DNA of 64,000 nucleotides. Origin: Aurantiochytrium sp. KH105 (Eukaryota > Sar > Bigyra > Thraustochytrida > Thraustochytriidae). Below, in pieces: positions 3,096 through 60,284 of this stretch (position 1 is its first letter; the number at the start of each line of letters is the position of its first letter). The DNA is taken from positions 124,001 through 188,000 of the forward strand of contig BGKB01000043.1 in NCBI GenBank assembly GCA_003116975.1, written 5' to 3'. Under the pieces are notes generated by a model that did not search any database, was not told the DNA's origin, and saw only the letters and a program-made list of their open reading frames with translations. Made by a program: the position numbers and the translations under genes.

Positions 3096-3155
3096 CTATA
3101 GCCGACTTGCATCGCGCGGAATCCGACTTGCGGGGGAGGGTTTGGCCGACTTGTG
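3096..3155. promoter_or_regulatory. Cluster of GCAAGTSGG-type motifs
   Basis: Three inverted copies occur in about 60 bases: CTATAGCCGACTTGC, GGAATCCGACTTGCG and GGCCGACTTGTG. The same core on either strand recurs in several other upstream regions of this window (see 32291, 38576, 39801, 45304 and 58741). The nearest downstream gene start is 4207, about 1 kb away. The regulatory role is inferred from recurrence only. Confidence 0.45.
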
Positions 3156-32290: not shown

Positions 32291-32330
32291 GCAAGTGGGG
32301 CTCGGGCGCGGCGCAAGTGGGCTATCGCCG
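32291..32330. promoter_or_regulatory. GCAAGTGGG motif pair
   Basis: The sites GCAAGTGGGGCTCGGG and GCAAGTGGGCTATCGCC lie 22 bases apart, about 480-515 bases before the ATG at 32806. They match the motif found in other upstream regions of this window. The role is inferred from recurrence. Confidence 0.5.
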
Positions 32331-32805: not shown

Positions 32806-35562
32806 ATGGAGGGCGAAAGCTCGTCGAGCTTCGTGGAGAACTGGAAGCGGCTCGACGGCCAGTTCGATGAGTACGCGCGGCTGCGCGAGCTGAGGTCGCT
32901 GGTGGCGCAGGGGGCCATCAGTCAGGCGCTGTACGACCAGATGCACCGCTACGTGCTAGAGAAAAACCTGTCCAAGAAGAAAAAAGGCGGTAAGAAGAAG
33001 TCGACGCGCGAGGCGCCCGAGCTGCCGCCGCGGAAATCGTCCATCTTCAGCCGTGGCAAGAGCGGAACCCTGCCCAAGGGCTCGCGCATCATCGAAAAGG
33101 GCGGCGAAACCCTGGTCGAAGGCGATGAGCGCGCGACGCTTTGGGGCCGCAAAGCCGTCATGGAAGGCTTTTTGTACAAGCGCGCCACCAAGAGTGGGCG
33201 CAATTGGAGGCGTCGCTACGTCAAGATCTACTTTGACAGGATGGACTACTTTAGCAAGAAGACGGACAAGACGCCGCGGGGAACGATCCACCTGACCAAG
33301 GACTTTTTTGTGGCAGATTCGATCTTGCGTCGCATCAAGAACACGCGTCCACACGGCTTTATGGTGTCTGATTTCGCCACCACCTTTTACCTTGCAGCGT
33401 CCTCCCCAGAGGCAAAGGTGTACTGGATGCACACGATCCAGCGCGTCCTGCAAAAACTCAAGGACCAAGACGAGCAAACCGATGAGCCCGTCCGCCTCGG
33501 CGAGCCTGAACGCACACCTTCGATGCGGGAAAGAGACATGCAGGCTCGCCTCGACGCGTATCGACGTGGCCTCCCCGTTACCGAGGTCGCACGGCACGTG
33601 TCCAAGGCCTCGAGCAAGGGACGGAGCTCGAAGGTGAGCGCCTTCAAGGCAGCTTCCCTCGGCGCTCCTCAGAGCCGCGTCGAAGTTGACGACGACGAAG
33701 AAGAAGATCTTGTCGAAGATGAGGATGTCAGCGACCTCGACGACGACAGCGCCGTCGAGGAGGAAGACGAGGAGGAAGAGGTGCACGATGACGACGACAA
33801 TGACGACGAAGCATCTGGCACGACCAGTGGTGCTCCCGTAGTTAGCTACATGGCTCCCTTGCGCGTGAGCGGAGGCTCGTCCAAGGGCCCAGACGGCATG
33901 CCCGTTCCGCGCATCATGTCCGGCAAATCGGCCGTGTCCCACACCAAGAGGCGCACTCTCTTGAGCGTTGAGCACGAGACCAGGACGCGGAGCATTGCAG
34001 ACGCTGCACTGAGCGCGCACGAGTCTGCGCGGCGTAGCGCCCAGGTCCATTTGGGTCTCGACGTGATGTCGTACGACCAGCAGGAGGACCTCCGAGATGA
34101 GGCTGCCACCGCTCAGGCGACGCGCCTCATGGCAGACATGGAGAACGAAGCCGCTATGTCCGAAATGGACAGCATGCTCTCTGCCAAGGACGCGCTCAAG
34201 GAGGAGCTACGCGCCGCGCGAGAGGCCGGAGACGAAGCCCGCGTCCGCAGTATCGAGGAAGAGTACGAAGAGACGAGAGCCAAGATGCAGGAGCTCGAAG
34301 AAGTCATGGCTCGATCCGCAGCAGAGCGGGCCGAAGCGGAAGAGATCGCCGAGCGGAACCGTGAACAGATTGCGCGCGCCAATGCAGCGAACGCCATCGT
34401 GCTGGAGCTCGCCAAGGTCGATGAGGCCATTTTGCTCGCCGAGCAACTGGCAGAAAAGGCCGATGAGGCCAGAAAGCGCGCCGAAGCAGCCGCCGCCAAG
34501 GTCCACGAGGAAGCACTGGCCGAGTCAAGGGAGCAAGAGGCGAAACTGCGCGAAGCTGAGGAGGCGGCCCGCAAGGCCCAGGAAGAGGAGGAAGAGCGAG
34601 CGCGGCAGGAAATGCTCATTGCGCAAAAGCTCGAGGAGACAGCGCGGAAAAAGGTGAACGAGAAGCAACGGCGAAAGATCGAGGAGGTCGCCGAAAGCGC
34701 TGCCAAGGCCCGCGCGGAGGCGGAGGAGCGCCGATTCGAAGCAGAGCTCGCGGCGACCGAATTGGCAAACCAGAAACTCGACTCCCTCGCCAAGGCAGCG
34801 GCTGTGGAACGCGCGCTGAATGAGACCAAGGCCATGATTAACAAGTCCCGCACGCGACAGGGGCTCGACGAGTTCGGGTTTGCGCGCCCACGCGAAGAGC
34901 GCGAGAGCGGCCGTGCCTCGGCCTCCGCAGAACCACCGCGCAGGAAGCGCAGCTCGATCTTTGACAAGCTTCGCTCGCGACGCAGCAAGAGCCGGGCCTC
35001 GGCGACGTCTTCGCGCGCGCCTGCAGGTGCGGCTCCGCCCGCCTCACCCACGTCTACTGGGGACCCGGCGGAGGCCTCGAACTCGTTTCGCTCGTTCTTT
35101 TCAAGCTTCACGCAAGCTGCCGTGGACGGTATCGAATATGTGACGGGCCTGCAGCTCGCTGGAGACGAAGCAGCTGCGGCCAATGGGGAGCAGGGCCTCG
35201 AGGACGACGACGCGGACTCCTTTTATGATGAGGAGGATGACTACGACGCGGCGTCTGACGACGGCGACATGTTCGACAAGCAGCTTCGCGCTGTAGGTGA
35301 GGAAGAAAGACTCCAAGCTGCGTCGGCCTGGATCGAGTTTGAGACGAACCGTCTGCTCGAGATCATCAAAGACATTGGTTACGAGGACGAGTACGGTCGC
35401 TCCGTGGCGACGTTTAAGGACCTTCTCGATGTCTACGAGGACATCTCGGATACCCTTGTGGGAATTTTAATTCGCGCCAAGCGTGCCGGCAAAGTTTATT
35501 ATGAGGGCGACATGCTCTTTGAGATCGAGCATGATGATGTCGAGATCACCGCTCTCGAATGA
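32806..35562 (+). CDS. PH domain, coiled-coil and costars-domain protein
   Basis: The protein has 918 residues. An N-terminal segment with a Lys-rich patch precedes a PH domain at about 119-222 (MEGFLYKRATKSGRNWRRRY ... VYWMHTIQRVLQKL), likely binding phosphoinositides. An acidic Ser/Asp/Glu linker follows, then a long coiled coil (about 430-680), a basic region and a second acidic run. The last 76 residues (about 843-918) match the costars domain: LLEIIKDIGYE, TLVGILIRAKRAGKVYYEG and HDDVEI correspond to its conserved blocks. Costars domains occur in ABRA/STARS and Dictyostelium costars, which regulate actin and SRF signalling. The combination suggests a membrane-recruited actin regulator. 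Actin itself is the convergent neighbour. Single exon. Confidence 0.85.
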   Translation: MEGESSSSFVENWKRLDGQFDEYARLRELRSLVAQGAISQALYDQMHRYVLEKNLSKKKKGGKKKSTREAPELPPRKSSIFSRGKSGTLPKGSRIIEKGGETLVEGDERATLWGRKAVMEGFLYKRATKSGRNWRRRYVKIYFDRMDYFSKKTDKTPRGTIHLTKDFFVADSILRRIKNTRPHGFMVSDFATTFYLAASSPEAKVYWMHTIQRVLQKLKDQDEQTDEPVRLGEPERTPSMRERDMQARLDAYRRGLPVTEVARHVSKASSKGRSSKVSAFKAASLGAPQSRVEVDDDEEEDLVEDEDVSDLDDDSAVEEEDEEEEVHDDDDNDDEASGTTSGAPVVSYMAPLRVSGGSSKGPDGMPVPRIMSGKSAVSHTKRRTLLSVEHETRTRSIADAALSAHESARRSAQVHLGLDVMSYDQQEDLRDEAATAQATRLMADMENEAAMSEMDSMLSAKDALKEELRAAREAGDEARVRSIEEEYEETRAKMQELEEVMARSAAERAEAEEIAERNREQIARANAANAIVLELAKVDEAILLAEQLAEKADEARKRAEAAAAKVHEEALAESREQEAKLREAEEAARKAQEEEEERARQEMLIAQKLEETARKKVNEKQRRKIEEVAESAAKARAEAEERRFEAELAATELANQKLDSLAKAAAVERALNETKAMINKSRTRQGLDEFGFARPREERESGRASASAEPPRRKRSSIFDKLRSRRSKSRASATSSRAPAGAAPPASPTSTGDPAEASNSFRSFFSSFTQAAVDGIEYVTGLQLAGDEAAAANGEQGLEDDDADSFYDEEDDYDAASDDGDMFDKQLRAVGEEERLQAASAWIEFETNRLLEIIKDIGYEDEYGRSVATFKDLLDVYEDISDTLVGILIRAKRAGKVYYEGDMLFEIEHDDVEITALE

Positions 35563-36242: not shown

Positions 36243-36291
36243 TTAGAAGCACTTGCGGTGGACGATCGAGGGTCCAGACTCGTCGTACTCC

Positions 36292-36323
<32 letters not shown>

Positions 36324-37373
36324 GAGCGAGGCAAGGATGGAGCCACCGATCCAGACAGAGTACTTGCGCTCGGGGGGAGCGACGACCTTGATCTTCATGG
36401 TCGAGGGGGCGAGGGCGACCATCTCCTTCTCGAGACGGGCGGCGAGGCCCTCGTACATGGTGGAGCCACCAGACATGACGATGTTGGCGTAGAGGTCCTT
36501 GCGGATATCGACGTCGCACTTCATGATGGTCTGGAACATGGTGTCATGCACACCCTGGGCCTCCTTGCCGATGAAGGACGGCTGGAAGAGGACCTCGGGG
36601 CAGCGGAAGCGCTCGTTGCCGATGGTGATGACGTTGCCGTCGGGAAGCTCGTAGGACTTCTCGAGGGCCGAGGACTCGGCGGCGAGGCGCATCTCCTCGT
36701 CGAAGTCCTGGGCGACGTAGGCGAGCTTCTCCTTGATGTCGCGGACGATCTCGCGCTCGGCGGTGGTGGTGAACGAGTAGCCGCGCTCGGTGAGGATCTT
36801 CATCATGTAGTCGGTGAGGTCACGGCCGGCAAGATCGATACGGAGCACGGCGTGGGGGAGAGCGTAACCCTCGTAGATGGGGACGGTGTGGGTGACACCA
36901 TCACCAGAGTCGAGGACGGCACCGGTGGTGCGGCCAGAGGCGTAGAGGGAGAGCACGGCCTGGATGTTGACGTACATGGCCGGGACGTTGAAGGTCTCGA
37001 ACATGATCTGGGTCATGCGCTCGCGGTTGGCCTTGGGGTTGAGGGGGGCCTCGGTGAGGAGGACGGGGTGCTCCTCGGGGGCGACGCGGAGCTCGTTGTA
37101 GAAGGTGTGGTGCCAGATCTTCTCCATGTCGTCCCAGTTGGTCACGATACCGTGCTCGATGGGGTACTTGAGCGTGAGGACACCACGCTTGGACTGGGCC
37201 TCATCACCGACGTAGGCGTCCTTCTGGTCCATGCCGACCATGATACCCGGGTGCTTGGGGCGGCCGACAATCGAAGGGAAGACGGCGCGGGGAGCGTCAT
37301 CACCGGCGAAGCCGGCCTTGCACATGCCGGAGCCGTTGTCGACCACGAGGGCCTGAACCTCATCGTCCGCCAT
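36243..37373 (-). CDS. ACT1: Actin
   Basis: The protein has 376 residues, the canonical length, from [20 protein letters not shown] to SIVHRKCF. The ATP-binding phosphate loops ([15 protein letters not shown] and [15 protein letters not shown]), the DNase-I loop region and the hydrophobic plug segment are all conserved. Codon use is extremely biased to C/G third positions, as expected of a highly expressed gene, and there is no intron. The open frame continues upstream to 37592, but the start at 37373 gives the universal actin N-terminus (leader ...CACCAAGCAAG|ATGG). It converges with the costars-domain gene. The strong bias creates a long meaningless frame on the opposite strand. Confidence 0.99.
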
Positions 37374-40310
37374 CTTGCTTGGTGGGTTGTTGCTTGTACT
37401 TGCGCGGGGGAAGGTTGCTTGTTTTGCTTGCTGGGTTGCGGGTCTGCTTGCCGTCGATCTGCTGCAGCGCGAATCCTGCGCGCTCTCTTCCGCGCTCCCC
37501 GCGTTCCCGCTTTTGCCCGCCTCCCTCGCTGGATCCAGGCTGGCGACCGCACCCCCGCCGCCGCAGGCCCCGCCGCGCAGGGGTACCGCCACTGTTGCTG
37601 GGGACGCATGGCATCTGCTCCACGAAAAGCTAACAGGGTCGTGACCACTGACTTCAGTCGAGCGCGCTGCGGAGCACGTGCTCCCCTCTCAAAGTACGGT
37701 CGATGTAAGATATAGGAAGCAAATGAAACTCATGCGGGAGATTACTTTTCGATGATCGACCGAAAGAGGGGGAGCGGTGGGAGGAGAGGATTTGACAGTG
37801 ATGGCATGGTCGGAGAAGGCAAACGCTGTCCCCAGGGAATGCACCTGGCGCACACCGGAGGTGGTGAGGGCCGGCAGAGGATGAGTCGCAGTGGAGCGTA
37901 GGTGGACGAGGCGGACGACTTGCGTTCGCCCCCCCGACGAACGTGCGGGGATCATACCTCGTGTCTAAATCCTACTGTTTAGAATATATAAGCTCTATGA
38001 GTCTACGTGGAAAGAACCCTCGCTCGCAAAGATTTGGCCCCCTCTAGAGTAAGGAACGACCGCCCCTTGTGAGTCCAAATATCCCCTCCTACGTCAACGC
38101 CGTTTCACGCCAGTAGCCGCTTCAATGAACGCCACTGCTCATATTCGCCAGTGCTGCACTCGATCCTTTTCAATCGTGTCAAGATTTCACGTCTCCCGCA
38201 GTCCTGCTATACACCACTGTACCATATTTGAGTGGAGAGTCTGCTTTGATTTCCCCCGACTTTGGCGGTGCATCTCGCGCCTCCAGTGCGCGAATCCTGC
38301 GCTGCAGGCGGACACGAGCGCGGAGCGTAGAAGGAAGAAAGTACGCAGCGTGGACCGATCACTCGCGTCCCGTTTGCGGCGATGGACCTCTCGGGTTTCT
38401 GCGTAAGCTCGACGAGTATATTTTTACTTTTCTAAACTAAAGGCAGCCCGACAAGGTAGTCGGCCACCCCGCGAGTGCTGCTCTGCGACAGTCACTGTCA
38501 TACACACCGGCCGGCAGTCAAGCAGGCTACAAAAGTAGAAGTAGGGGGCTACGCATCCTACGCACACGCTCCCCGCAAGTGGACAATGGCCGTGCGCACA
38601 CTGCGCGTCGATGGACACGCAAGTGCGTCCAGCCGCATTCTCGTGTTGCCCTGACAAGGCAGCGCAGTGCAGTGCGGCGCAGCGCGGCCAGGCCGCTGTC
38701 CCGGCCTGCCCGCCCTCCTCCCTCCCTCTTTCCCACTTTCCCTCTCTCCCTCCCCCACTCTCCCTCTCCTCTCCGCCCCACTGCGCGCCGCTTCCAAGGA
38801 GGCACTTCCGCATCGGCTTCCGACACGCTGCCCCGCCTCCTCCTCCTTCCCTTTCCCTTAATCTCTCCTTCTTCATAGTATAGTAGTAGTAGAGCGGTAT
38901 AGCTGAGGCGCATCTTCATCTTCCGGGGCGCCGGGCGCACACCCCGTCGGCGTACGGTTTCGCGTAGGCGGCGATAGTACGTCCTGGCTTCTGCAGCTGC
39001 AGCTGAGCGGGGGACGCGCACACCCTCTTTCGGCGCGCGCGCGGCCCGGGTTCCGTCCCGTGCGTAAAGGCGAGGAGGTATGGTGGGGAGAGTCGGCGCG
39101 GTTAGTGCACACAGCAAGCTCGCTCTTCGCTGTCGTGGTCGCGCGTGCGCGCTCTTCTTTTGTTCATCATACCTTCGGAAGTACGTCGATCGTTCGATCG
39201 ATCGATCGATCGGTCGGTCGGTCGATGCGGGTTGTTGGCGGCGCCATCACCCACCACTCACAACTCAAGCGCGAGCGAAGTACGAGTCGTTCATTATAGA
39301 CAAAGAAAGAGCTCTCAGGCTAGCCGGTGATCCTGGCTCTATCCTGGACAACAACCAACTTCGAGTCCTCAAGAGCCAGGCTGCTCATCTTTGTACTCCA
39401 TCTTGACTGGCTGGCTTGTCCATTCCATTCCATTCCGCGGGCCAGAAAGTAACCGTGGCCGAGCTGCGGCTTCGGCCACTCCGAGTCGCCGGCTCGCCAA
39501 TCCAGGCCGACTTTTGCGGCTCCGGCGAGTCAAGAATCAACTTCTCCTCTCCGTATCTCTCTCGCTCTCTCTCCCGGCTACGTATACCACGACGGGAACC
39601 AGGGGTCCTCGTAGGGACCCCATCTCTCCAGGTGTGCGCCCGTTTGCGTACCAGCAGGGCAGCGCTCGCTCGAGGCGCGAGCGAATCTTGAGCCCGTCGC
39701 GAACTAGTCAACTTGACTATAGAACCTGCGCGTGGTCTCCCGGCTGCTGGCTGCATGCGCAGAGGCAAGTGAAACTCTCCCGAAAGTCGCACTGGGCGGG
39801 GCCATAGCCGACTTGCCGGGGCGGCGCCGTTCAGTGGCAGGCGTAGCAGCCATTCAGCCGAGCGTAACCACGGCGCAGAATAGGGAATGGCGCGAAGCTG
39901 CACTTGCGGCGCGGCGCGCGCGAATGGAGTATCGGCCGGCAGCAGGGTTTAGCGCGCTTGGCGCAAATGAACAAAGGCGCGGAGGCCGGACCTGAGGGCG
40001 CGAACTCGGGAGGCGCACGGCGCGCCCAGACGACTCGTGCGGGCCCGCCCCGCCGTGCCGCGGCGTACAGAGCGACCGGCCGGCCGGCCCTCCGCCCGCC
40101 CGCCCGCCCCCGCGGCCCCTCTCCAGCGCCGGGAAAGCGCTCGCGTCGGCAAAAAGGAACGCGCGAGCCCCTGCGGCGCGGGATATCCACGTCGAAAGAG
40201 GAAAAGCATACGAGGGGGTCTTCGCACAGTTGCGCTACGCGACGAGCTTTGCGCGCCGCGCTGCGAAATTTTGACAAGAGTCGAGGCGAGGGGAAACGAA
40301 CAAGCTCACC
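37374..40310. promoter_or_regulatory. Long divergent intergenic region between actin and the PHD gene
   Basis: This 2.9 kb region contains the actin promoter on the left: C/T-rich leader and a TATATATT-like string on the minus strand near 37984. A GATC/GGTC repeat lies at 39186-39228. GCAAGTGGACAATGGCC lies at 38576-38592. A GC-rich part (39780-40290) holds further copies of the GCAAGTSGG motif (39801-39930). Pyrimidine-rich stretches occur at 38700-38880. Several frames are low-complexity; I see no supportable gene. Confidence 0.5.
39801..39930. promoter_or_regulatory. GCAAGTSGG-type motifs upstream of the PHD gene
   Basis: GCCATAGCCGACTTGCC at 39801-39817 is an exact inverted form of the motif. 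GGGAATGGCGCGAAGCTGCACTTGCGGCG near 39885-39913 combines its two halves. The distance to the ATG at 40311 is about 380-510 bases. Confidence 0.5.
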
Positions 40311-41963
40311 ATGATGAAATCCTCCATGCCCAAGGAATCCTCGCTCGGAGACATCATGCGACGCAGATCCTCCTCTGCCAACTCCGCCTCGGATATGGAC
40401 GACTCGCCCCGCAGACGCCGAAGAAGCGCTGACCAGACCAAGCGGTCTTACGTTGAAGACGACGGCGACAACGAAGATGACAACGACGAAGAAGAAGATC
40501 ATGGCTTCCTCTCAGACTCCGACAAAGAAAAGTCGCATCGAAGGGCCGTCATCGCAGCCAATATCGCGCAAAAGGCCGCCGACCGCAGGCACCACACCAA
40601 CGACAGCAACGGCAAACGCGCCTTGCAGTCCTCCTTGGCGTCTTCGCCTTCGTCTTCCACGTCACCGTCAACTGCGAACGGGGCCCTTTCTCCAAAGTCA
40701 CATCGCCCCGCATTGCCTTCGCTTACCACGATCGGAAGACGGCGCAGCAGCTCCCGTGGCGACCGACTTCGCGCAAGAGCCTCTCCCTCGAATTACAGCA
40801 CTGACTCCGAAAAGGATCCCGAAAGCGTCAAGGCCGAAACCTCGCTCGAGGACGACGCGGCCGACCTTCTCGCTAGTGGATCCAAAGGTCGCGACCATCT
40901 GACTCGCAACGCCGAGGACATCGCGGCCGACGCACTCTGCGGCGCTCTTGAAGCCGACGCCTCGCCCAGTCCACCAGCACCGAGTACGTCTCTTCGCGTG
41001 AAAACCAGTCCCTCCAATGCCACCGCGGCCAGCTCTTCGGGAGACTCCGACGAGCCAGACACCAATGAATCCCAGGGCGCCGTGGAAATGGAAGGCGTCT
41101 GGGATGGCAACGAAGAAACATGGACCGGAACTTGGTTCCAGGTCGAACTGCCCGAGCTTGACGCCCCTTTCGAATACAAACCCCTTCCCGCTGAAGTCGA
41201 TGCTGATATGGTCGATATGCCTTGTGAACTCTGCAAAGGTTCCGATCCAGAGGGTTTTCTCTTTTGCGACCTTTGCAACCGTGGCTTCCACATGTGGTGC
41301 TGCGGTCTCGTTGAGGAACCCGGTCCTGATGAAGACTGGCACTGCAAATCTTGTTCAGCCGTTCTTAAACGCTTCAAACAGCAGCTCCCGCCCTCTCGAC
41401 GCTGGTCTGGATGGTTCCGCATGTCCAAAAAGGCCCACCTCAAGGGTTATCAGTACAAGGAGACCTTCAAGGTCAACTTTGATTATTCGACCGAGTTCAA
41501 GCAGTCAAACCTCATTGCCAAGTTTTCAGGCGACGGAAAGAATCGCCTCGGCGACTTTCGCTTCACGGGGAAAATGACGTATGAAGATGGAAAAATTTAC
41601 CTGCGCTCGCGCAAGTCCTATCTTCGTGAGCCGGTCAAGCGGAAAAAGACGCCTTCCTCTATTTCTGCTCGCAAGCGAGAAAAAATTGTCGATTCTAGAT
41701 CGGTATCTCCCGAACCTGTTGACCTTCGCTCTCCGGGCGCGTCCCCCACGGGACCGTGGAATGCAGGTCAGCGCCGCGCATCGAATGCGACTACACCTGC
41801 CGATTCCGTTGCTACGTCTCCTGGCGCCTTTACCAACGGCCCGGCGGCCTCGACAAGCGCCTCGCACCAGCCAAACCTCACTGCAGCTGCTGCAGCCTTT
41901 GCGGCCAGCGCAAATGGAAGTAGACTCCCGTCTTTGCAGCAGCAGCAGCAGCAACAGCAACAA

Positions 41964-41994
<31 letters not shown>

Positions 41995-43121
41995 TTTTGC
42001 AACAACAACAACAACAACAACAACAACAGCTTTCACAACAAGCAGGCTCCCAATACTATGTGGACTCGAGCGACCCGCGTCAAGTGGCGCTAGCCTTTGG
42101 CCTCGTATCTCGTGAACTCCATCGTTTGCGCGGACCCAAGACGACTCTCGTTGTGACCGACCTTGACTGCGGATTTGGCAAAAGCAATTCCCGAAACGAA
42201 TCGCCCAATCAGCTCCCACTTCTCTGGCACTTTGTCGCTGCTCTTCCCGGAAATCTCAAGTGGATCTCCGAAGTGCCGCGCGGTGCGCTTGAGATTCTCT
42301 TTCGCATGCATACTCTCGAGTATTTGACTGATCTTATGCAAAAGTCGAAGCGCGACAATGATCTCGAAACCAGATTTACCGCAGCGGTCAAGGCGTGCGG
42401 TGCGATGGCTCTCGCAATTTCTAGCATCATTCCAGATCCTCGCCAAGTCCCTCATCTTCGTCTTGCAACCAACAAAATACCCCAAGGAAGCAACGCAATT
42501 GTGCTTGCTTCCCCTGGAACGAGTCGCACGGGCATTCGCGGTCTCGTCGGAGAACCCATGGGCTCCTCCGTTGCAGCAGATAACACCAACGCATCCGGAG
42601 ATCCCGGCAAGCGAGCGGATACACGCAGGAATTCTCTCAACGGTAGTGCACTTGACGCAGCGTCATCATCAGCAACTGCAACTGCAACCACGACATCATC
42701 CGAGGCCGATGGCTCCTGGAGTGTGCTCAATTATGTGGCACATGGTGCGATTCATGCCAACGACTTGCTTGGCGAGCGCGTGGCGGTTCTCAGCGTTTCC
42801 CCCTCGGACCGTGCGCTTGGTACTGCGCAGATCCTCAAGGGTCGTGGCATCTTCTTTGCCGCAAATTATGCAGAATCCGGCATGGACTGGCTCGACAAAA
42901 TTCGCACCGCTCTCGAAGGACTTAAAGAGTTTCAGCCTACAGTGCTCATCGTCACCCAGGCCTTCGCCGTGCCAGACACCTGTCCGCCAACTGTCGTCAC
43001 GAAACTCACGCTCGATTTGCTCAGCATTTGTTCACAGCTCATCTCGGTGGTAGAGGAGGCAACACCGGACATGAGTCACCACCTTCGCGCACACATCGAG
43101 GCTCTCCAAGCCTTTGGATAG
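40311..43121 (+). CDS. PHD-finger protein with probable inactive HDAC-like domain
   Basis: The protein has 936 residues. The N-terminal 280 are Ser/Asp/Glu-rich with basic patches, suggesting a nuclear protein. A PHD finger spans Cys305-Cys348 (PCELC ... FCDLCNRGFHMWCC ... WHCKSC), a zinc fold that usually reads histone H3 tails. A beta-rich segment (370-430) and a Gln tract (about 543-576) follow. Residues 590-936 resemble a class II histone deacetylase: LFRMHTLEYLTDL, RFTAAVKACGAMALAI, NYVAHGAIHAN and ERVAVLSV...LGTAQIL align with its landmarks. The catalytic strings are lost: RPPGHHA is ASPGTSR (733-739) and DVHHGNGT is SVSPSDRALGT (828-838). A scaffold or reader role is likely; the HDAC relation is inference by eye. 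Confidence 0.7.
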
Positions 43122-43643: not shown

Positions 43644-44948
43644 TCATGCGGTAGCCTTGAAGCGATACAAGGTGAACTGCGTCGCAGCAATCTCCGGGAA
43701 GCGCAATGCATAACTTGCCGGCGCCTCCTTAAAAGGATCGTCCAAATACGCTGCCGGGGCAGGAGAACGCTCCATGGTGAAACCAACAGCCTCCATCGCC
43801 GCGAGGAACTCACGCAGTCCCGCGCGATCGTCGTCGGCCGACACATAGAGGAATTCGCCCTTCTCGCAAAGAAGAGATTTGATTGTGTGCACAAGCGGAC
43901 CGACAAGATCCAAATCGTACACCAAATCAGATCCAATGAGCACATCTGTTTTCCCCTTCAAGGTCTCGGACCACGAGGATTCCTCCGTCCAGTCCAACGC
44001 ACAAGCAGAGAGACTTGCATTCTCACGGGCGCCGGCATGAAGACCAACATTGTGTTCGGTGTTGAAGTACGTCGCAGAATCCACATCTGTCACCACTACC
44101 TCTCGCGCCTCCGTGCAGCGGTACGCAACGATGCCCGGAAGTCCACAGCCTGCACCAAGTTCTGCCACCAACTTGCCCTGGAAGAGCGTCTTCTCATCCA
44201 CGATCCACCGTGATAATGCCAATGAGGCTGCCCACAGGAACGCACCCGTCGTTTTTAAATCATCGGTAGTCTTTGATGTGTCCACGAGACCGATCTCACG
44301 CACGGCCACTTCTTGGTCGCCAAAAACGCACAGGCTCTGCGACGTTTGCGTCTTCACACGGCACATTCCATCTTCCGTCTCGCCGTCCACTTCGGCCTCC
44401 GAAGCCGTGCCGCCCAAAGCACCGCTCTCTGAGTCCTCCCCGTCCTCTTGACCAGCCTCTCCATCTTGTGACTGGTTTTTACCGAGCTTGTCCGCACTCG
44501 GGTGCTTTAGCACAGCTTGCACGATGGTGGCATTGTTTGTGTCCATGGCTAGCGTCACGCTCGACTTCTTTTGCGCATTCTGGTCGAGAACGTCAATGTC
44601 TTTCCCATGTTCAAGAAGAGCAGCCACGGCCTTCTCCTGTTTGTTTTCGAGAGCCCAGTGCAAGGGCGAATTACCAGCCTTGTTCTTGCCAAATGTTGCG
44701 CCCTTCTCCACCAGCAGGAACTTGACCACCTCGCCGTGATTGTTGGCGCTGGCCATGTGTAGCGCCGTGTTTCCGTCTTCGTCCGTCACATTTGGGTCCA
44801 TGTCGGGCACCATTTTCCACAGCAAGCGTAGGTTTTCTAGCTCGTCATACCTGGAGCACTCCAACACGTCGTTCTTTGCCGCTGCCTGGTCGCTGGCCGA
44901 CAGCGACGCAAAGGCCCTCGGCGTCACCTCGTCGCCGTCGTCTCCCAT
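43644..44948 (-). CDS. Ankyrin-repeat protein methyltransferase (METTL21/EEF2KMT-type)
   Basis: The protein has 434 residues from ACCATGG. About three ankyrin repeats lie at residues 36-150 (DGNTALHMASANNHGEVVKF, AGNSPLHWALENKQEKAVAA). An acidic Ser/Glu linker (155-195) leads to a class I SAM-dependent methyltransferase of the METTL21/FAM86 group (Methyltransf_16). Its features are GAFLWAASLALSRWI, motif I VAELGAGCGLPGI at 261-273, an acidic motif II end (VVVTDVD) and DVLIGSDLVYD where this family has its D/E-x-x-Y substrate motif. These enzymes methylate lysines on chaperones or translation factors. The ankyrin part probably selects the partner. Single exon, nothing missing. Confidence 0.9.
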   Translation of the reverse strand: MGDDGDEVTPRAFASLSASDQAAAKNDVLECSRYDELENLRLLWKMVPDMDPNVTDEDGNTALHMASANNHGEVVKFLLVEKGATFGKNKAGNSPLHWALENKQEKAVAALLEHGKDIDVLDQNAQKKSSVTLAMDTNNATIVQAVLKHPSADKLGKNQSQDGEAGQEDGEDSESGALGGTASEAEVDGETEDGMCRVKTQTSQSLCVFGDQEVAVREIGLVDTSKTTDDLKTTGAFLWAASLALSRWIVDEKTLFQGKLVAELGAGCGLPGIVAYRCTEAREVVVTDVDSATYFNTEHNVGLHAGARENASLSACALDWTEESSWSETLKGKTDVLIGSDLVYDLDLVGPLVHTIKSLLCEKGEFLYVSADDDRAGLREFLAAMEAVGFTMERSPAPAAYLDDPFKEAPASYALRFPEIAATQFTLYRFKATA

Positions 44949-46025
44949 GGTTCGAGCCTTCTAAGTGGGCTGAGTAGCTATCGTTGACCGACTGGCTGAC
45001 GAGCCTCTCCACCGCCGCCACGTCGCCCCGCGTCAGCTCGCGTCGCCTCGCGTCAACTCGCGTCGACTCGCGTCGCGTTGCAATATGTCGCAGCGCTCCC
45101 CAGCTTGCCCGCGACTGACTGGATGCGAGCACCGACCTCACTGTCAGCAGCCAGGAGGGAGAAAAGAATGAAGAAGGTCCATCTCGACCATTGGGGGGGC
45201 TCCGCGCGAGTCTGGCCGCCAGCCCCGCCTCCGGCCCTGCTCGGTCTCCGCGGGGGCCGCTGAAGTTTTCCTCCTCAAGGTGCGCGGTGCCCCCCGGCCG
45301 CGGGCGCAAGTGGGTCCGTCTCTGCGGCGCAAGTGGGTTATGGGCGGCGGCAAGTGGGCGAAGGGCGGCGCAAGTGCGGAATGGCGGCGGGCGGCGGCGA
45401 GGCGCGAGCAGCGGCGCCGCCGCAAGTGGAGGTACGCGGCGCGCAAGTGGGGCAAACGGCCGCCGCAAGTGCGGAAAGCGGAGAGCGGCACTTGCCGCGC
45501 CGCGTCTGCACTAGATCGCCGACACGGCCAGAACAAAAAAGAGAAACAAAAGACGAATTCGAGGAGGGCAGGCAGCCGCGCGCGGCCTGCGTGCGTGCCT
45601 GCGAGCGAGCGCGCGGACGCGAGCGCGCGGGAGGGCGCGCGGGCGAACGCGCGGAAGGGCGCGCGCGACGGTCGGCGGCGCGGCGGCGCGCGGCGCGCGG
45701 CCGTGAGCTGGGCCGGAACGGACCAGACCGCGACTGCCTGTCCCCGCGACGGCGCGGCGCGGCGAGGCTGCTCTCCGAGCAGCGCGCGCCTCGAGCGACG
45801 GACGAGGGCCACGACGGCGAAGACGAGGGCGAAAGTGAAAGCGAAAGCGAAAGCGAAAGCGGGAGCGTGAACGAGGACGACGAGGACGAGATCGCGACGA
45901 TTCGTCTTGCTTCGTCCTTTTTTCCCTTGCTTCTCTTTTTGACTTTCTTGTCCTCTCCTTTCCCATCTTCTTCTCTTCATCTGTCTGTGGAAAGCTGAGG
46001 CCCGCGACGCCGCCCTGGCGGCACA
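44949..46025. promoter_or_regulatory. Divergent promoter region of methyltransferase and SYF1
   Basis: This 1.08 kb region contains the densest array of GCAAGTSGG motifs (45304-45497), a GCGAAA repeat (45828-45865) and a pyrimidine-rich tract (about 45900-45990) just before the SYF1 ATG. Degenerate GCGTC repeats lie at about 45030-45075. No gene is visible; long frames on both strands are compositional. Confidence 0.55.
45304..45497. promoter_or_regulatory. Array of at least eight GCAAGTSGG motifs
   Basis: Cores start near 45305, 45328, 45350, 45370, 45422, 45443 and 45466, with an inverted copy near 45488. The fullest versions read GCAAGTGGGTTATGGGC, GCAAGTGCGGAATGGCGG and GCAAGTGCGGAAAGCGG. 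Spacing of the first four is about 20-23 bases, close to two helical turns. The array lies 356 bases from the methyltransferase ATG and 529 from the SYF1 ATG. Confidence 0.55.
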
Positions 46026-48605
46026 ATGGAGTCCGCAATTGAGGAGAAACTTGTACGCGAGCCCCACGTAGTCAAGCGATGGATAGAATACCTTGATGTG
46101 AAAAAAGATGCTCCGTATCTGCTCCGCGCAGCCATCTACGAGCGAGCTCTCTTTCACCTCCCTGGCAGCTACAAACTTTGGTTCAGATACCTCGACGAGC
46201 GGTGCAAACACGTTCGGGGCAAACCGCTCGCTGAAAAGGAATACGAACTCACCAACGCAGCCTTTGACCGCGCGCTCGTGTACATGAACAAGATGCCCCG
46301 CATCTGGATCATGTACGCCGCCTTCTTGCGCTCGCAGGACCTCATCTCCAGGTGCAGACTCGCCCTTGACGATGCTCTGCGTGCCTTGCCTATCACGCAA
46401 CACAACCTCATCTGGGATGAGTACCTGCGCTTCGTCTACAAGCACAACGAGCTCTGGCAGCTTGGCTGCCACGTGTGGCCAAAGTACCTCCAGTTTGAAC
46501 CTCGCCATCGCGAGAAATATGTCGACTATCTTCTTGAAGCCAATCGCCATGGGGAGGCCATGGAGCAGATTGGTATCATGGTCAGCGACCCAGGCTTCGT
46601 TTCCGCCGAGGGGCGCACGCTTCACGACATCTGGATCCAGCTTTGCGACCTTATCGTCAAGTATCCCGCAAAGGCCGCCAACCTCGGCCGCAACAAGCTC
46701 GACGTCGAGGCTGTACTTCGCGCAGGCTTGCGCAGGTTTTCAGACGAGACGGGCCGTCTCTGGTGCGCGCTCGCCGAATTTCACATCAAGCTTGGCCAGT
46801 TTGGCTCCGCCGAAGATGTCTACGAGGAAGGTATGCGCGCAGTCAATACTGTGCGTGACTTTAGCACCATCTTTGACGCCTATGTTCAGTACCAGGAAGC
46901 AATGCTTACGGCCAAGATGGACCTTTTTGGAGACGACGAGGAAGAAGACGGAGACGAAGCGCGCGACAACAACACAGATTCTGGCACGGGGAGCAGCGCC
47001 ATCGAGGGTGGTACTGAAAATGACAAGGCTGCCGCCGAGACCGCGATCGAGGGACCTGAGGCGAAACGCCGCAGGACAACGGCGATTACCGAACCCTTTT
47101 ACCACATTAACGCAGACTCAGAAGACAAGGTCAATGACGTTGACTTGCGCCTTGCGCAACTGTCCTTTATCATTGACCAGCGCCCGTTTCTTCTCAACGA
47201 GGTGGTCTTGCGCCAGAACCCGCACAATGTGCAAGAGTGGCTCAACCGCGCGAAACTTTTCCGAGAAAAGGAAGATGTTGCGCAGGTCGTTACCACGCTC
47301 AACCGCGCGCTCGAGGTCGTCAACCCGGCCTTGGCTCTTGGGCGCCCCAGCGAACTCTGGATTCAGCTGTCCAAAGTGTACGAGGACAATGAAGACTCCG
47401 AAGAGGCGCGCAAGGTCTTGCAGACCGCAGCCGATAGCCCCTTTCGAGACGTCGAAGACCTCGTGGCCGTTGTCTGTGCTTCGATCGAACTCGAACTCCG
47501 CCACGAGGCCTTTGAGCGTGCACTTACGCTCGCTCGGGACGCCGTCAAGCGACCTTCTGAGCGCGCCATTGCCGAGAACATTGCTCTGCAGCGCCAGCGC
47601 CGCACCAAGGGTGTCGAAGGCCCAAGCGTGCCCGGAGCGGACGATGTCAAGAACACCGAGGGCATCGTCAAGGAGAAATTTCGCCTGCAGCAGCGCCTGT
47701 ACAAGTCGACCCGCCTTTGGAGCTTGTACGCGGATCTCGAGGAATCTCTCGGTACGCTCGCCACTGCTCGCGCTGCATATGAGTCCATGATCGACCTCAA
47801 GGTCGCCACGCCGCAGACCATTCTCAATCTGGCCTGCCTGCTGTATGAAAACAACTTTTACGAGGATGCCTTTAAGGCTCTTGAAAAGGGTGTTGCACTC
47901 TTTGACTGGCCACACGTGGGGGATATCTGGAGCGCCTACCTCACAAAGTTTGTCAGCCGCTATGGTGGCTCCAAGATGGAGCGCACGCGCGAGCTCTTTG
48001 AAAAAGCTCTTGCTGGTGCGCCTGCGGACAAGGCCAAGCCGCTCTTTTTACTTTTGAGTGATTTTGAAGAAGAACATGGCGACTCCACACACGCCATGGC
48101 CAACTACGAGCGCCTTTGTGCCACGGTTCCCGAGAACCAAAAGGTCGACATGTACAACCTCGCTGCTGCCAAGGCGCACGAGCTCGTGGGTGTCTCTCGC
48201 ATGCGCAACATTTTCGAAAGCGCACTCGAAGACCTCCAGGACCCTGTCAACCTGCGCGAAGTCAGTTTGCGCTTTGCAGAAAAGGAGCGCGCTCTTGGCG
48301 AGATCGACCGCGCACGTGCAATCTTCAAGCACGCGGCCCAGTTTGCGAACCCCCGGACAGTGCTCTCATTTTGGGATCGCTGGAAAGAGTTTGAAGTCGA
48401 GCATGGTAACGAAGACACCTATAAGGAGATGCTCCGGGTCAAACGATCGATTCAGGTGCGCTTTCAAGACACAAACTACGCCCTTGGCCAGAATGATTCT
48501 CATGACAGCGAAAAGCCCTTTGCGTCCCAGCAAGTTACGAACTCTGGCAACAAGAAGGACCCCAATGACAAAGACAAGGTCGAGGACGGCACGCCTGCGC
48601 CTTGA
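46026..48605 (+). CDS. SYF1: Pre-mRNA-splicing factor SYF1 (XAB2)
   Basis: The protein has 859 residues built almost wholly of HAT (half-a-TPR) helical repeats. SYF1/XAB2 is a scaffold of the Prp19-associated NineTeen complex in the spliceosome and, in animals, also acts in transcription-coupled repair. The N-terminus (KRWIEYLDVKKDAP, RAALFHLPGSYKLWFRYL-like block, PRIWIMYAAFL, LRALPITQHNLIWDEYLRFV) is highly conserved family sequence. An acidic insert near residues 300-345 (DDEEEDGDEARDNN) and a disordered C-terminal tail are usual. Length agrees with the 855-residue human protein. Single exon; the start follows a pyrimidine-rich leader. Its presence shows the organism needs a full spliceosome despite few introns here. 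Confidence 0.96.
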   Translation: MESAIEEKLVREPHVVKRWIEYLDVKKDAPYLLRAAIYERALFHLPGSYKLWFRYLDERCKHVRGKPLAEKEYELTNAAFDRALVYMNKMPRIWIMYAAFLRSQDLISRCRLALDDALRALPITQHNLIWDEYLRFVYKHNELWQLGCHVWPKYLQFEPRHREKYVDYLLEANRHGEAMEQIGIMVSDPGFVSAEGRTLHDIWIQLCDLIVKYPAKAANLGRNKLDVEAVLRAGLRRFSDETGRLWCALAEFHIKLGQFGSAEDVYEEGMRAVNTVRDFSTIFDAYVQYQEAMLTAKMDLFGDDEEEDGDEARDNNTDSGTGSSAIEGGTENDKAAAETAIEGPEAKRRRTTAITEPFYHINADSEDKVNDVDLRLAQLSFIIDQRPFLLNEVVLRQNPHNVQEWLNRAKLFREKEDVAQVVTTLNRALEVVNPALALGRPSELWIQLSKVYEDNEDSEEARKVLQTAADSPFRDVEDLVAVVCASIELELRHEAFERALTLARDAVKRPSERAIAENIALQRQRRTKGVEGPSVPGADDVKNTEGIVKEKFRLQQRLYKSTRLWSLYADLEESLGTLATARAAYESMIDLKVATPQTILNLACLLYENNFYEDAFKALEKGVALFDWPHVGDIWSAYLTKFVSRYGGSKMERTRELFEKALAGAPADKAKPLFLLLSDFEEEHGDSTHAMANYERLCATVPENQKVDMYNLAAAKAHELVGVSRMRNIFESALEDLQDPVNLREVSLRFAEKERALGEIDRARAIFKHAAQFANPRTVLSFWDRWKEFEVEHGNEDTYKEMLRVKRSIQVRFQDTNYALGQNDSHDSEKPFASQQVTNSGNKKDPNDKDKVEDGTPAP

Positions 48606-55144: not shown

Positions 55145-58100
55145 CTAACGCCAGCGACCGCTATCCGCGCCACCGCTGCGACCAAAGGTGCGCTCGCTAC
55201 CGCGATCACCACCATTAAAGCCGCCACGACGATCACTAAAGCCTCCACGCTCGCTGTTACCAAAGCCTCCACGCTCACTGTTGCCAAAGCCGCCACGGCC
55301 ACCACCGAAGCCGCGCTCGCTGCGCTCACCACCTTCACCGCCAAAGTTGCGCTCGCCATAGTTGGAGCGACCTCCGCCAAAAGCAGAGCTGCCCGGGCGC
55401 TCCGAGAAGCCGCCGCGGCCACCGCCAAAGCCACCACGCTCTCCACGCTCGCCGCCAAAGCCGCCACGACCACCGCCGAAGCCGCCGCGCTCGCCTTCGT
55501 ATCCGGCGCGCTCACCGCCGCCGCGCTCGCCAAAGGCACCGCCGCCGCGACCGCCGCTAAAGCCGCCACGACCGCCGCCAAAGCCACCACGGTCGCCACC
55601 AAATCCGCGACGGTCACCACCAAAGGGACCATCTTCGCCACCACGGTCGCCGCCAAAGCGACCGCCGCCGCGATCGCCACCAAAGCCGCGACGCTCGCCG
55701 CCAAAGGGGCCATCGTCACCACCGCGGTCGCCACCAAAGCCGCGACGCTCGCCGCCAAAGGGGCCATCGTCGCCACCACGGGCCTGGGCCATGCCGAAGC
55801 GGCCGCCATCATCCTCGTAGCGCATGGGCGGGCGGTCTGTGGGGGGTGCGTCATCCATCATGGGGCGGCGCGACGGGCCGTCGTTCATGCGGTCGCCACC
55901 GTACTGCTCGCGCTCCGAGCGCATGCGCTCCTCGCGCTCCTGGCGCTCCTGCTCTTCGCGCTCCTGCTCCTCGCGAAGACGCTCCTGCTTCTGGCGCTCG
56001 CGCTCAACACGTTCGGCCTCGGCCTTACGCATCTCGATCTCCTTGGAAGCCTTGGCGCGGGTCTTGCGAGCACGGTCGAGCTTGGCGAGCTTGAGACGGC
56101 GGTCGCACTCCTCCCAGCGCTCCTGGCGGTCCGCCTCGTACTCTTCGTTCCAGCGAGCCATGAGCTTGTCTTCGAATTCCTTGCGGGCCTTTTGCATGTG
56201 GGCGTAAGTGGCCTTGTTTTCGAGGTTCTTCTTGTGCTCGTCGAGGCTCTTGGCCTTGAGAGCGGCAAAACCCTTTTTGTGGTCCTCCTCGTCCTTGACG
56301 AGACGCTCCTCGTAGAGCTTCTTGAGCTTGGGGATCTCCTTTTCGCGGAGCGCGCGGACGCGAGTGTCCAGGCGCTTGGCGGCGGCAATAAGCTTCTTCT
56401 CGGTCTCGATGGACTCGTCGAGAGCCTTCTTGCGCGTCTCCTCGATGAGCTTTTCCTGCTCCTCCGAGGTCATGTTCTTGCTGAGCTGGCTGACATCAAC
56501 ACCCTCGTCGATGAGGCGCTGCTTGAGCTCGAACTGCTTCTTCTCCTCCTCGAGGGCATCGAGCTCCTTTTGGGCACGAGCGTCCTTGTGCTTTTGCAGG
56601 CGCATAGCCTCGGCCTTCTTGCGCGCGGCCTCTGCTTCCTTGCGACGACGCTCGACGTCAACCTTGCGCGCGTGCTGCTCGCGATCGTGGTCATCCTTGC
56701 GCTTGGAAATAATATCGCGACGGCGAAGCACCTCCTGGTGCGTCTGCGAGAGGTGCTCAAGCACGGTCTTGGCACGTGCGGCGCGGGCCTCGGCATAGAG
56801 CTTTGCCTTGCCCTTGGGCTCCAGCTCGGCGCAGATGGACTTGAGACCACGCGCCATATCAGTGAGAACCCACTGGGTACGCTGCTCCTCCATGATGTCC
56901 TCACCGAAGCGGATGCAGCCGGCGGTGTGATCGAGCGTGAGCGAATGGGCCTCAATCTGACGCGTCTTGATCGCCTTGATCAAGTACGACTCAATGGACA
57001 TCCACGGCTGGTTAAGGGGCTCCATCATCTTTTGTAAGTACTCAAGTCGCACAGAGTAGTACACCTGTGCGAGCTGGGAAATGACACGGACGATAAGAAG
57101 CTGCTCAAGAGGCTCCACGTAGTGCTGGAGGCGCTCATCCGCCTTGAACTTGTTGAGGATCGGGCCGGCCTTGGCTGCGAGCTTGAGCGGCGCGAAACTG
57201 CGCTCAAGCTGCAGAAAGAGCACGCGGGTCTCGGGCGTGACGAGCTCGAGGATGCCATCATCGACGAGCTCCTTCATGAGGGCCTCGCGGTCCGTGGTAG
57301 TCTCGAAGCCAAGGAGAACAGCAAGCTTGTTGTTCTTTTGCTTCTCGACGCTCTTGGAGCCATAGGTGGTACCCGCCTTGGCATTCTTGAGGGGAATGCT
57401 CATGGCCGCGAGCAAGACGCAGCTGGCCATCGTAGCGCTTTCCTCGGGTGTGAGACTCTTGTTCTTCTCCACCGAGATCTGAAAGTAGGCCCTGTAAGCG
57501 TAGGCGTGGAAGAGGTAGTTCTCAGCCACGAGAAAGAGATCCGTGAGCTTCTGGTAGTAGGTGGCCTCGAGCTGGCTCGAAGGGCGCTGCTCGGTCTTCA
57601 TGAAGATGCTGTGGATATCCTCGATGGTGCGGAAACCTTCGTTCCAGAGCTTGAGCTGCGAAGCGACCTTGAGCTGCTCGAAGCGGGTGGCCAGCTGCAG
57701 CTCAAGAGCCTCAGGGGGGGCAGGGCCATCACGGTCGCGGGTGCGGTTGGTGTGGTTGCGCATGGTGTCGCAGAGCTTGCGGAATTCCACCTTGCGGCTG
57801 TACTCGACGCAGAACTTCATGGTGCGGAGAGCCGTGCGCTGGTACACGTTGGCGAGCTTGTGGTTCCCGCGCAGAATCTCGAGCGTCGACCGGTACGACT
57901 CCCACATGAAGCGCAGCCAGGGCACAAGGACCTCGCGCTCGGTGCGTTCCTTGTTTTGTTCGCTGCTCACAGACTCAAGGAGGATGCTCTCTGGGGTCTT
58001 GTCGTTCTCGAGATCTTCGACATCGTCGACGGTCTTGCGATCGCAGACGGCCGACATCTCCTTGACGCGTTTCTCGGCCAGATTGAGCATGTACTCAATC

Positions 58101-58366
58101 ACGGTCTCCAACGACTGGGGCGCCTGTACCTGGCAAAGATTGCGATACTGATGCAGACCCTCTTTGGCCATGAAGTTGTTGCGAGAATCGACGCACAGGT
58201 CCATGAAGCGCTCCATCACCTGGATGTGGGCGGGCTGCCATTGTCGGTTCCGCCGCAGCGAGAGAAACTCGTACAGGACCTCGAGGGCCTGCTTCTTCTT
58301 GCCGACCGCGATGAACTCATCGGCGCGCTTGAGCACGTTCTCCGGCTTCACCACGTACCAGCTCAT
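55145..58366 (-). CDS. EIF3A: Translation initiation factor eIF3 subunit A
   Basis: The protein has 1073 residues. eIF3a is the core scaffold of eIF3 on the 40S ribosomal subunit. The N-terminus ([37 protein letters not shown]) is diagnostic. A helical repeat region and PCI domain follow (to about residue 510), then a long charged spectrin-like helix (540-870, Arg/Glu/Lys-rich). The C-terminal 200 residues are Gly/Arg/Phe-rich repeats such as [16 protein letters not shown], an RGG-type RNA-binding tail replacing the Asp/Arg repeats of animals. Length lies between yeast (964) and human (1382). The start gives the family N-terminus [12 protein letters not shown]. Single exon; strong codon bias creates long antisense frames. 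Confidence 0.97.
55175..55790 (-). repeat. Gly/Arg/Phe coding minisatellite in eIF3a
   Basis: Tandem imperfect units encode FGG, RGGFGG and a longer [16 protein letters not shown] block repeated two to three times. The frame remains open throughout. Such arrays change length easily. Confidence 0.85.
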
Positions 58367-58740: not shown

Positions 58741-58894
58741 GCAAGTCGGGAATGGGCGGCCGCAAGTCGGGAATGGCGGGGCAAGTGGGCTATGGGCTAA
58801 CTGTAGGAGGGCGGGCGCGGCGCTTGCAGCGGGAAATGTGTCACTTGCGAACGGTGCATAACGCACTTGCGGCGGGGGCGATAGCCGACTTGCC
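58741..58894. promoter_or_regulatory. Array of GCAAGTSGG motifs, both orientations
   Basis: Forward sites are GCAAGTCGGGAATGGGCGG (58741), GCAAGTCGGGAATGGCGG (58762) and GCAAGTGGGCTATGGGC (58781), spaced 19-21 bases. Inverted partners follow near 58842, 58864 and 58878 (GCGATAGCCGACTTGCC). It sits between the divergent eIF3a and 59040 genes. Confidence 0.6.
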
Positions 58895-59039: not shown

Positions 59040-60284
59040 ATGTCGGGCGCGGGCGAAGTTCACACGCCGGAGCGGAGCCAGAAGCTCAAGGAGGAGCAGA
59101 CGAAACGCAACTCAGCCTTTAAGGAAAACTTGAACACCAGGCTGGAGCAGTTCGCGCAGGAAGAGCGCGAGACAAAGGCCCGCTTCGAAGCCAACAAGCC
59201 CGACGTGGCGGCGCGCAAGCAAGAGGTCCGCGATGAGCAAGCAAAGCGTGATAAAGCCTTTGCGGAAAAGCGCGAAGCCGCCGTACAAAAGTACTTTCAG
59301 GATCTTGAGGAGGCCGCGCCTGCTCGCGAGCAGCAACGTCGCGAGATGACAGAGTCGATCGCTGCGCGCACGAAAGCGTCCCATGAGGCCCGTGTCGAGA
59401 AGGATAATGCCTTCAAGGCCGATCGTGACCAGCGCGTCAAGGAGTACGTTGCCAGCGAGGACGCCGCCAGCGCCAAGGGCAAGTCCAACGAGGAAAAGGA
59501 GGCGCTGCGTGACCAATTTCGCGCCAAGAGCCGGGCCGATGCCCTCAAGCGTCGCCAAAAGTACGCCGAAGAACAGAGGGCCAAGTGGGCGGCTAGCCTT
59601 ACCTCTGGCGCCGAGACCTACTACAAGAACAAGGCAGCCGCCCCAGCCCCGTCGCGACCTCGAAGGTCGACACCGGACTCTGTGGCTGGATCCAACAACG
59701 AAGGCAAGGGGGCAGAGCTCAAGAAGGACGGCGGCGCTTCCCAAGAGGCAGCTGTCCCCGCACACATTGCGTCGCAGCGCGCTCTGCCCATCTTTATGAG
59801 CCGCGGCGTTCCTGTACGAGAGCGTGCAGAGCCTGCCGTTGACGCCGCTGCAGCCAAGAAGGAAGCCCAAACAGCACCGACGAAGATTGCAGCCCGTAAT
59901 GCCGAGAAGCGCGACGCACGTGCTGCGCGCGATGCCAAGTTCAAGGAAGATTATGCGTCCACTCTCCGCGCCTTTCTCGAGGAGGAGTCTGTTCGCGAAG
60001 AGGAGTCTGCTGCTTTTAGCATGAAGATCGTGACGGACCTCAAGGACAAGTTCAACGCTGACGCCGATGCACGCAAGGCGCGCGACGAGAAGCAAGCGGC
60101 TGCTCGCCAAGAAAACCTTGCTTCTTTTCTCGCTCGCGAGAAGGATGATCTTGCTCAAGAAAAGGATGCCAACGCTCAGAAGATCACGGAAATCCAGACG
60201 CGCCTTCGCGACCTCGATGCCAAACGTCGTGCCATGGACGCCAAGTTTCGCGAGGCGCGCACTGCGGCCGCGGCGGCTCACTGA
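59040..60284 (+). CDS. Charged coiled-coil protein, unrecognised
   Basis: The protein has 414 residues from AAGATGTCG, almost entirely Ala/Glu/Lys/Arg helix with heptad character. A flexible Pro/Ser linker near residues 205-275 contains HIASQRALPIFMSRGVPVRE. Repeated phrases such as AKRDKAFAEKRE, KDNAFKADRD and RDAKFKEDYA suggest an internal repeat of roughly 40 residues. No catalytic or targeting motif is visible. Structural or cytoskeletal proteins of this kind are common in protists. The open frame runs upstream to 58932 without an ATG. A separate ATG at 58922 in another frame overlaps this start, so the transcript may begin downstream of it. Confidence 0.8.
   Translation: MSGAGEVHTPERSQKLKEEQTKRNSAFKENLNTRLEQFAQEERETKARFEANKPDVAARKQEVRDEQAKRDKAFAEKREAAVQKYFQDLEEAAPAREQQRREMTESIAARTKASHEARVEKDNAFKADRDQRVKEYVASEDAASAKGKSNEEKEALRDQFRAKSRADALKRRQKYAEEQRAKWAASLTSGAETYYKNKAAAPAPSRPRRSTPDSVAGSNNEGKGAELKKDGGASQEAAVPAHIASQRALPIFMSRGVPVRERAEPAVDAAAAKKEAQTAPTKIAARNAEKRDARAARDAKFKEDYASTLRAFLEEESVREEESAAFSMKIVTDLKDKFNADADARKARDEKQAAARQENLASFLAREKDDLAQEKDANAQKITEIQTRLRDLDAKRRAMDAKFREARTAAAAAH

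Follow-up and report, generated by a model that had tools for sequence, protein, structure and literature searches.

GCAAGT-containing sites on a 21-bp lattice lie upstream of genes in the thraustochytrid Aurantiochytrium sp. KH105

The window, a stretch of 64,000 nucleotides covering positions 124001-188000 of contig C43 of Aurantiochytrium sp. KH105, contains a motif that is real and genome-wide and whose copies are arranged on a lattice of about 21 bp. Its enrichment, phasing, freedom of orientation, position upstream of genes and the conservation of its hexamer GCAAGT between alleles were observed, and the motif is probably a site array for one sequence-specific nuclear protein that marks DNA upstream of numerous genes. 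Genome-wide searches were performed with the 76.03-Mb assembly of 367 contigs; for this diploid assembly the accessible part of the genome report gives 76.7 Mb of scaffolds with 54.4% GC (PMC5924542), and the window has a GC content of 57%. Both haplotypes are assembled as separate contigs (C43/C46, C16/C41, C5/C21, C27/C32 and others) and therefore copy counts obtained from the genome are roughly doubled.

The preliminary description had given the motif the shape GCAAGTSGG-N-ATGGC. With at most one mismatch this pattern was found 730 times in the 76-Mb genome (351 and 379 matches on the two strands) versus 18 times for the reversed control, and the core GCAAGTSSGSWATG was found 607 times (304 and 303) versus 2 times for its reversed form. 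Within the window, where up to three mismatches were allowed, 29 matches were detected versus 12.9 ± 4.0 in shuffled sequence, and 29 was reached in 0 of 100 shuffles. GCAAGT alone is mildly enriched, with 1.13 copies per kb outside ORF models versus 0.81 per kb in coding sequence, and in a general search for k-mers enriched outside the (incomplete) ORF models the motif was not ranked. The feature that sets the motif apart is its phasing and not the abundance of GCAAGT alone.

Column frequencies were determined for the 81 half-site pairs with a period of 19-23 bp among the 100 pairs listed, in all of which GCAAGT was fixed by the query. In these 81 phased pairs, position 7 was G in 71 and C in 10, position 8 was mostly C/G, position 9 was G or A, position 10 was G/C, position 11 was A, T or C, and positions 12 to 14 were A (63%), T (62%) and G (52%), so that W-A-T-G was present in 23 of the 81 and W-A-T in 36; linker positions were C/G in about 90% or more. 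The motif thus takes the form GCAAGTG-S-R-S-W-A-T-G in GC-rich linkers and, judging from these frequencies, consists of a hard core, GCAAGT-S, followed by a looser preference for R-S-W-A-T-G. Of the shape proposed originally, the first half therefore survives as the hard core, but the motif is broader than GCAAGTSGG and its second half is loose. An EM refinement with 40 columns drifted into the GC-rich flanks and was discarded. We take GCAAGTG to resemble a non-canonical E-box (CAAGTG) and the sites of NK-homeodomain proteins.

A spacing of 19-23 bp, which had been noted for some of the sites, turned out to be the main feature of the motif. Among the matches listed, tandem core pairs had a period of 19-23 bp in 100 of 100 cases when 16-30 bp were allowed, and tandem half-site pairs in 81 of 100 when 7-37 bp were allowed (19 exceptions), the mean period of these 81 listed pairs being 21.2 bp. 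Second neighbours were separated by 40-46 bp in 21 of 24 cases (31-61 bp allowed) and by 35 bp in the other three. Genome-wide, tandem core-plus-half pairs were detected 251 times versus 0 times for the reversed control and tandem half-site pairs 2200 times versus 60 times, numbers that are smaller when expressed as independent pairs because the lists include both alleles of many loci.

Inverted pairs displayed equally characteristic gaps. Head-to-head core pairs were separated by 9-13 bp, typically by about 10.5 bp, in 12 of 12 cases (0-30 bp allowed), which come down to about 8 independent loci once obvious allele pairs are merged, and tail-to-tail core pairs were separated by 4 or by 25-26 bp in 5 of 5 cases (0-28 bp allowed), corresponding to about 3 loci. 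For head-to-head half-site pairs, 1190 strand-matches were obtained genome-wide versus 95 for the reversed control, and a gap of 9-13 bp was present in 27 of the 57 places listed, the other 30 being spread broadly. The inverted pairs define a cell of 10.5/2 + 14 + 4/2 = 21.25 bp, which is so close to the mean tandem period that both orientations evidently share one 21-bp cell, that is two turns of DNA. A single cell close to a multiple of 10.5 bp accommodates all of these arrangements, with exceptions; in the array at 58.7 kb of the window, for example, the plus and minus halves are 40 bp apart, measured between 14-mers, and so lie off the lattice. As a separate observation, sites that overlap at a distance of 13 bp (GCAAGTCGGGAATGCAAGTGCGGAATG), the ATG of the first merging with the GCAAGT of the second, are exceptions to the 21-bp spacing at C96:44845 and C147:128341 and similarly at C69:323055.

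Within the window, sites were present at every place where they had been noticed. The 58.7-kb array consists of three tandem plus-strand sites at 58741, 58762 and 58781 (58741..58796; 21 and 19 bp apart) and three minus-strand half-sites with first bases at 58848, 58870 and 58893 (58835..58893; 22 and 23 bp apart), and this order of +++--- in 58741-58893 bears out the claim that both orientations occur, even within one cluster. On its left, the gene for eIF3a (55145..58366, minus strand; eIF3a_PCI_TPR-like, E 3e-111) has its start codon 375 bp from the array, and on its right an ORF of 414 amino acids with no Pfam match (59040..60284, plus strand) starts at a distance of 147 bp. The 45-kb array (45306..45495) comprises eight half-sites, seven on the plus strand (45306, 45329, 45350, 45370, 45422, 45443 and 45465) and one on the minus strand (first base 45495), between the divergent genes for an ankyrin/lysine methyltransferase-16 protein (43644..44948, minus strand; start 358 bp off) and the splicing factor SYF1 (46026..48605, plus strand; start 531 bp off). 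Two tandem plus-strand sites at 32291 and 32313 (32291..32328; 22 bp apart) are located about 490 bp upstream of an ORF with matches to PH and Costars domains (32806..35562, plus strand), and two tandem minus-strand sites at 3095 and 3116 (3095..3131; 21 bp apart) are located about 1.08 kb upstream of the plus-strand ORF 4207-6156. A plus-strand site at 38575 is accompanied by a half-site 44 bp further on at 38619 (38575..38632), between a divergent actin-family gene (36243..37592, minus strand) and a PHD-finger gene (40311..43121, plus strand). Also upstream of the PHD-finger ORF are a plus-strand half-site at 39765, a full minus-strand site at 39801-39816 and a minus-strand half-site with first base 39907; since these are mutually out of phase, 39765..39907 was not counted as a cluster. 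Finally, two weak sites at 2205-2220 (plus) and 2221-2236 (minus) form a tail-to-tail pair with 4 bp between 14-mers.

The sites had been described as near-identical and as confined to non-coding DNA, and both statements apply to the better matches: ten sites in the window have at most one mismatch to the 16-mer of the preliminary description, and all ten lie outside the codon-usage gene models. Several of the named sites, however, deviate further from the 16-mer, with 3 mismatches at 2205, 2221, 3116 and 32291 and 2 at 45350, and matches with 2-3 mismatches also occur inside coding ORFs, for example at 25065 and 33923. Mechanically called ORFs overlap some of the sites with at most one mismatch, such as ORF 2521-4143 over the 3095 site, and beyond the window one match with 1 mismatch was located inside an ORF model (L012:7457).

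Positions relative to genes were analyzed in a sample of 264 kb, composed of the window plus 20 stretches of 10 kb taken systematically, using codon-usage ORFs made for this analysis as gene models, which are incomplete and intron-blind. The sample contained 41 phased half-sites in 11 clusters. For 179 control words of the same composition, the median number of phased half-sites was 0 and the maximum was 8, apart from CAAGTG with 28, a word that overlaps the motif itself. A modelled 5' end of a gene adjoins 10 of the 11 clusters, and 10 of the 11 lie outside ORF models, the remaining one being inside a model of 40 codons that we consider spurious. For seven clusters the genes on either side are both modelled, and 5 of these 7 are flanked by divergent genes; one (L020) has a 3' end on one side and a start on the other, one (L028) has the start of a short model on one side and the 3' end of a UFD1/UBX gene on the other, and none of the 7 lies between two 3' ends. 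In the four clusters with one modelled neighbour, a 5' end was found in 3 and a 3' end in 1 (L027). At a further locus (L001) the modelled neighbour, a tubulin-tyrosine ligase gene, faces the site with its 3' end. Enrichment over controls and placement upstream of genes, as expected for a transcription-factor site, were therefore both found.

The genes whose modelled 5' ends face sites, drawn from the clusters of the 264-kb sample and from the site-centred loci L002-L008 as a plain list, encode eIF3a, SYF1, eIF3e, V-ATPase AC39, L10e, a DEAD-box helicase, 14-3-3, dynamin, an aminotransferase, a PHD-finger protein, a PH/Costars protein and an actin-family protein. Cluster density is uneven, with 5 of the 11 clusters in the window and 6 in the remaining 200 kb. 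Extrapolation from 11 clusters in 264 kb gives about 1,600 clusters per haploid genome, and from the 6 clusters in the 200 kb outside the window about 1,100, the latter being the less biased figure.

In order to judge conservation, the haplotypes were compared. The second haplotype of the window is found on contig C46 and is 5-10% diverged in aligned pieces, with many indels. In 14 allele pairs, 791 of 812 aligned columns were identical in sites versus 7420 of 8565 elsewhere. The two haplotypes agreed in GCAAGT in 57 of 58 comparisons (20 of 21 in the window and 37 of 37 at picked loci), and controls with neighbouring 6-mers were kept in 71% of cases in the window and in 65% at the picked loci. 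The single GCAAGT lost was a GCAAGTT, so that GCAAGT-S was identical in 57 of 57 comparisons and conserved above its surroundings, with the qualification that 37 of these 57 half-sites come from loci picked because both alleles match the motif; in two regions of the window one allele's site was already known before the comparison, and the 3095 and 32291 sites were left out because the allele pieces L030 and L031 did not span them. Only 2 indels, both of 1 bp, were present within clusters in 1041 aligned columns, versus 81 events in 7801 columns outside. Mismatches in the window were only slightly fewer in clusters (13 of 323) than outside (294 of 4315; Fisher p 0.06), and at picked loci they amounted to 18 of 718 in clusters versus 306 of 3486 outside. 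The clearly conserved unit in the window is the hexamer and not the whole cluster. About 90 bp around the 2205..2236 pair are identical in the other haplotype. At another locus (L053, about 40-95) a perfect inverted repeat (GGGGCCCCCAATAGAT...ATCTATTGGGGGCCCC) was seen upstream of a site array, and the allele (L054) carries a shortened form of it.

Several other explanations were weighed. The preliminary description had suggested a core promoter or initiator element, which would fix the transcription start, and the upstream location, together with the distance of 150-700 bp between several clusters and a modelled start codon, would agree with this. However, the nearest modelled start codon is anywhere between 147 and 2404 bp away, up to eight copies and both orientations occur within one cluster with no fixed orientation relative to the gene, and core elements of oomycetes are described in the accessible part of one report as orientation-biased and close to the start (PMC3599244); this role is thus very unlikely. 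The refuting case named there, that the sites prove to be copies of one dispersed repeat, was considered in a wider form including transposable elements and elements acting at the RNA level. The copy number is high (730), but with the sites masked only 5 of the 351 pairs formed by 27 non-allelic loci match (over 17-40 bp, low-complexity filter on), and the 25 of 351 that match with the filter off do so mostly through GC-rich simple sequence. As homology between these 27 loci hardly extends beyond the motif in this comparison, as strand counts are near-equal for pattern and core, and as an Rfam search of the window returned no family, an origin of this kind is extremely unlikely.

The sites could also be decaying GC-rich minisatellites with a 21-bp unit, generated by slippage and without function. 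With Tandem Repeats Finder, arrays whose period is 21-22 were detected at 32285, 45324, 45416 and 58739, some adjacent units share linker sequence (for example CGCGCCGCC), and triple half-sites with this spacing are found in viral contigs as well (113 stretches with this looser pattern, 80 of them listed). Those viral triples, which span 49 bases (two periods summing to 42) in 68 of the 86 matches listed, are tentatively taken for in-frame coding repeats; the tandem core pair itself was found in viral contigs in 1 stretch with one pair and in prokaryote contigs, used as negative control, in 4 stretches with 5 matches, and the viral locus L059 had 5 half-sites versus 4.4 expected. Against slippage, one hexamer occurs at hundreds of unlinked loci with differing linkers, units flip orientation within a matching cell, periods spread over 19-23 bp instead of keeping one unit length, and the hexamer is kept while flanks vary by indels and, once masked, hardly match, all of which renders a minisatellite origin highly improbable. 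Architectural or replication sites, such as insulators, boundaries or origins that are located at promoters because chromatin is open there, would fit the freedom of orientation and the placement between divergent genes, and we consider them unlikely.

Location, phasing in three arrangements and conservation of the hexamer together make a strong case for a sequence-specific protein that occupies one side of the helix at steps of two turns, and free orientation and variable distance point to an activator or promoter-marking factor and argue against an initiator. The earlier proposal of a transcription-factor site specific to this lineage is thus well supported by promoter location, phasing, allelic conservation and excess over controls; protein binding, its cooperativity and an activating effect are what we infer from them. 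One sequence-specific nuclear protein would bind sites upstream of a large number of genes, many with housekeeping functions and frequently arranged as divergent pairs. Within a site, GCAAGT-G/C is the near-invariant half, and the looser half, around W-A-T-G, follows roughly one turn of the helix later; the protein therefore probably contacts two adjacent major grooves on the same side of the DNA. With sites every 21 bp in either orientation on a common lattice, the bound proteins would line up on one face, where neighbours could bind cooperatively, and the array could recruit the transcription machinery in both directions. A bolder version, in which an entire lineage of protists would define its promoters mainly by such arrays, is put forward tentatively and is rather doubtful; one dedicated factor would then tile GC-rich promoters in 21-bp units of either orientation, and the resulting nucleoprotein array on one face of the DNA would open bidirectional promoters.

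In animals, housekeeping and bidirectional promoters carry activator motifs that work regardless of orientation, such as the sites of NRF1, ZNF143, YY1 and M1BP. The present motif is like them in having many copies upstream of housekeeping genes, in either orientation and often between divergent genes, but it differs in sequence and in its lattice, as those sites are usually single or few and are not known to follow a strict two-turn lattice. Helically phased transcription-factor sites are also known as homotypic clusters, in which repeats on one helix face suggest cooperative binding; what differs here is that the lattice is found again and again across one genome and admits either orientation. 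A transcription-factor motif at promoters is of a known kind; the unusual part is an orientation-free 21-bp lattice throughout a genome.

Among stramenopiles, the accessible part of a study of Phytophthora infestans describes INR, FPR and DPEP as orientation-biased core promoter elements near the start, INR and FPR being AT-rich and DPEP (SAASMMS), about 26 nt downstream of the start, being slightly GC-rich and tending toward housekeeping genes (PMC3599244). The likeness lies in the presence of promoter elements in stramenopiles and in the slightly GC-rich, housekeeping-linked DPEP; however, in the best register, compared by eye, SAASMMS asks for M where CAAGTSS of the present motif has T, so that the sequences do not match. 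Motif-3 of P. infestans contains CAAGTC in two listed occurrences, but its listed sites are AT-rich and it is without the second half and the lattice of the present motif, as far as the accessible text goes (PMC3520976). The accessible parts of the Phytophthora promoter papers (PMC3599244 and PMC3520976) and of PMC11267843 and PMC12695648 do not describe the motif, and its letters are absent from the available text of an ATAC-seq study of S. limacinum, which names the motif families BPC, MYB, OBP and others (PMC10840233). Literature searches by motif letters or by thraustochytrid and labyrinthulomycete promoter terms did not find the motif, and logos that are only drawn could escape such text searches.

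Thraustochytrids are used for omega-3 oils, and the literature searches yielded very little on their promoter elements. A motif in perhaps about a thousand promoters would give access to a main regulator of basic genes, the 21-bp lattice might serve as a design rule for bidirectional promoters, and the arrays could provide naturally occurring test cases of how cooperative binding depends on helical phasing. In the same genome, the PfaD family of PUFA synthase gave four strong matches (two genes, each on two contigs), a profile that is also matched above threshold in 1 of 14 control genomes, and a profile search of the genome for the light-harvesting family gave no match. Both results and the GC content of the window agree with a thraustochytrid, and the first 156 bases of the 18S gene resemble those of labyrinthulomycetes.

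Two further sequence features were observed. Repeats of about 10 bp with units resembling TCGAGTCG or GCCAAGTCGA are located near motif clusters or gene starts, in the window at 31054-31196 and 45021-45074, downstream of the site at L001, and at L051/L052; in the masked-flank comparison L001 and L051 match at these repeats. With 10 bp to a helix turn, they may represent another promoter element with helical phasing. Outside ORF models, the palindrome TAGGCCTA occurs more often than expected (28 copies versus 11 expected on both strands of the 264-kb sample), and 2 copies are located in the window (2546 and 19186) versus 0.15 expected.
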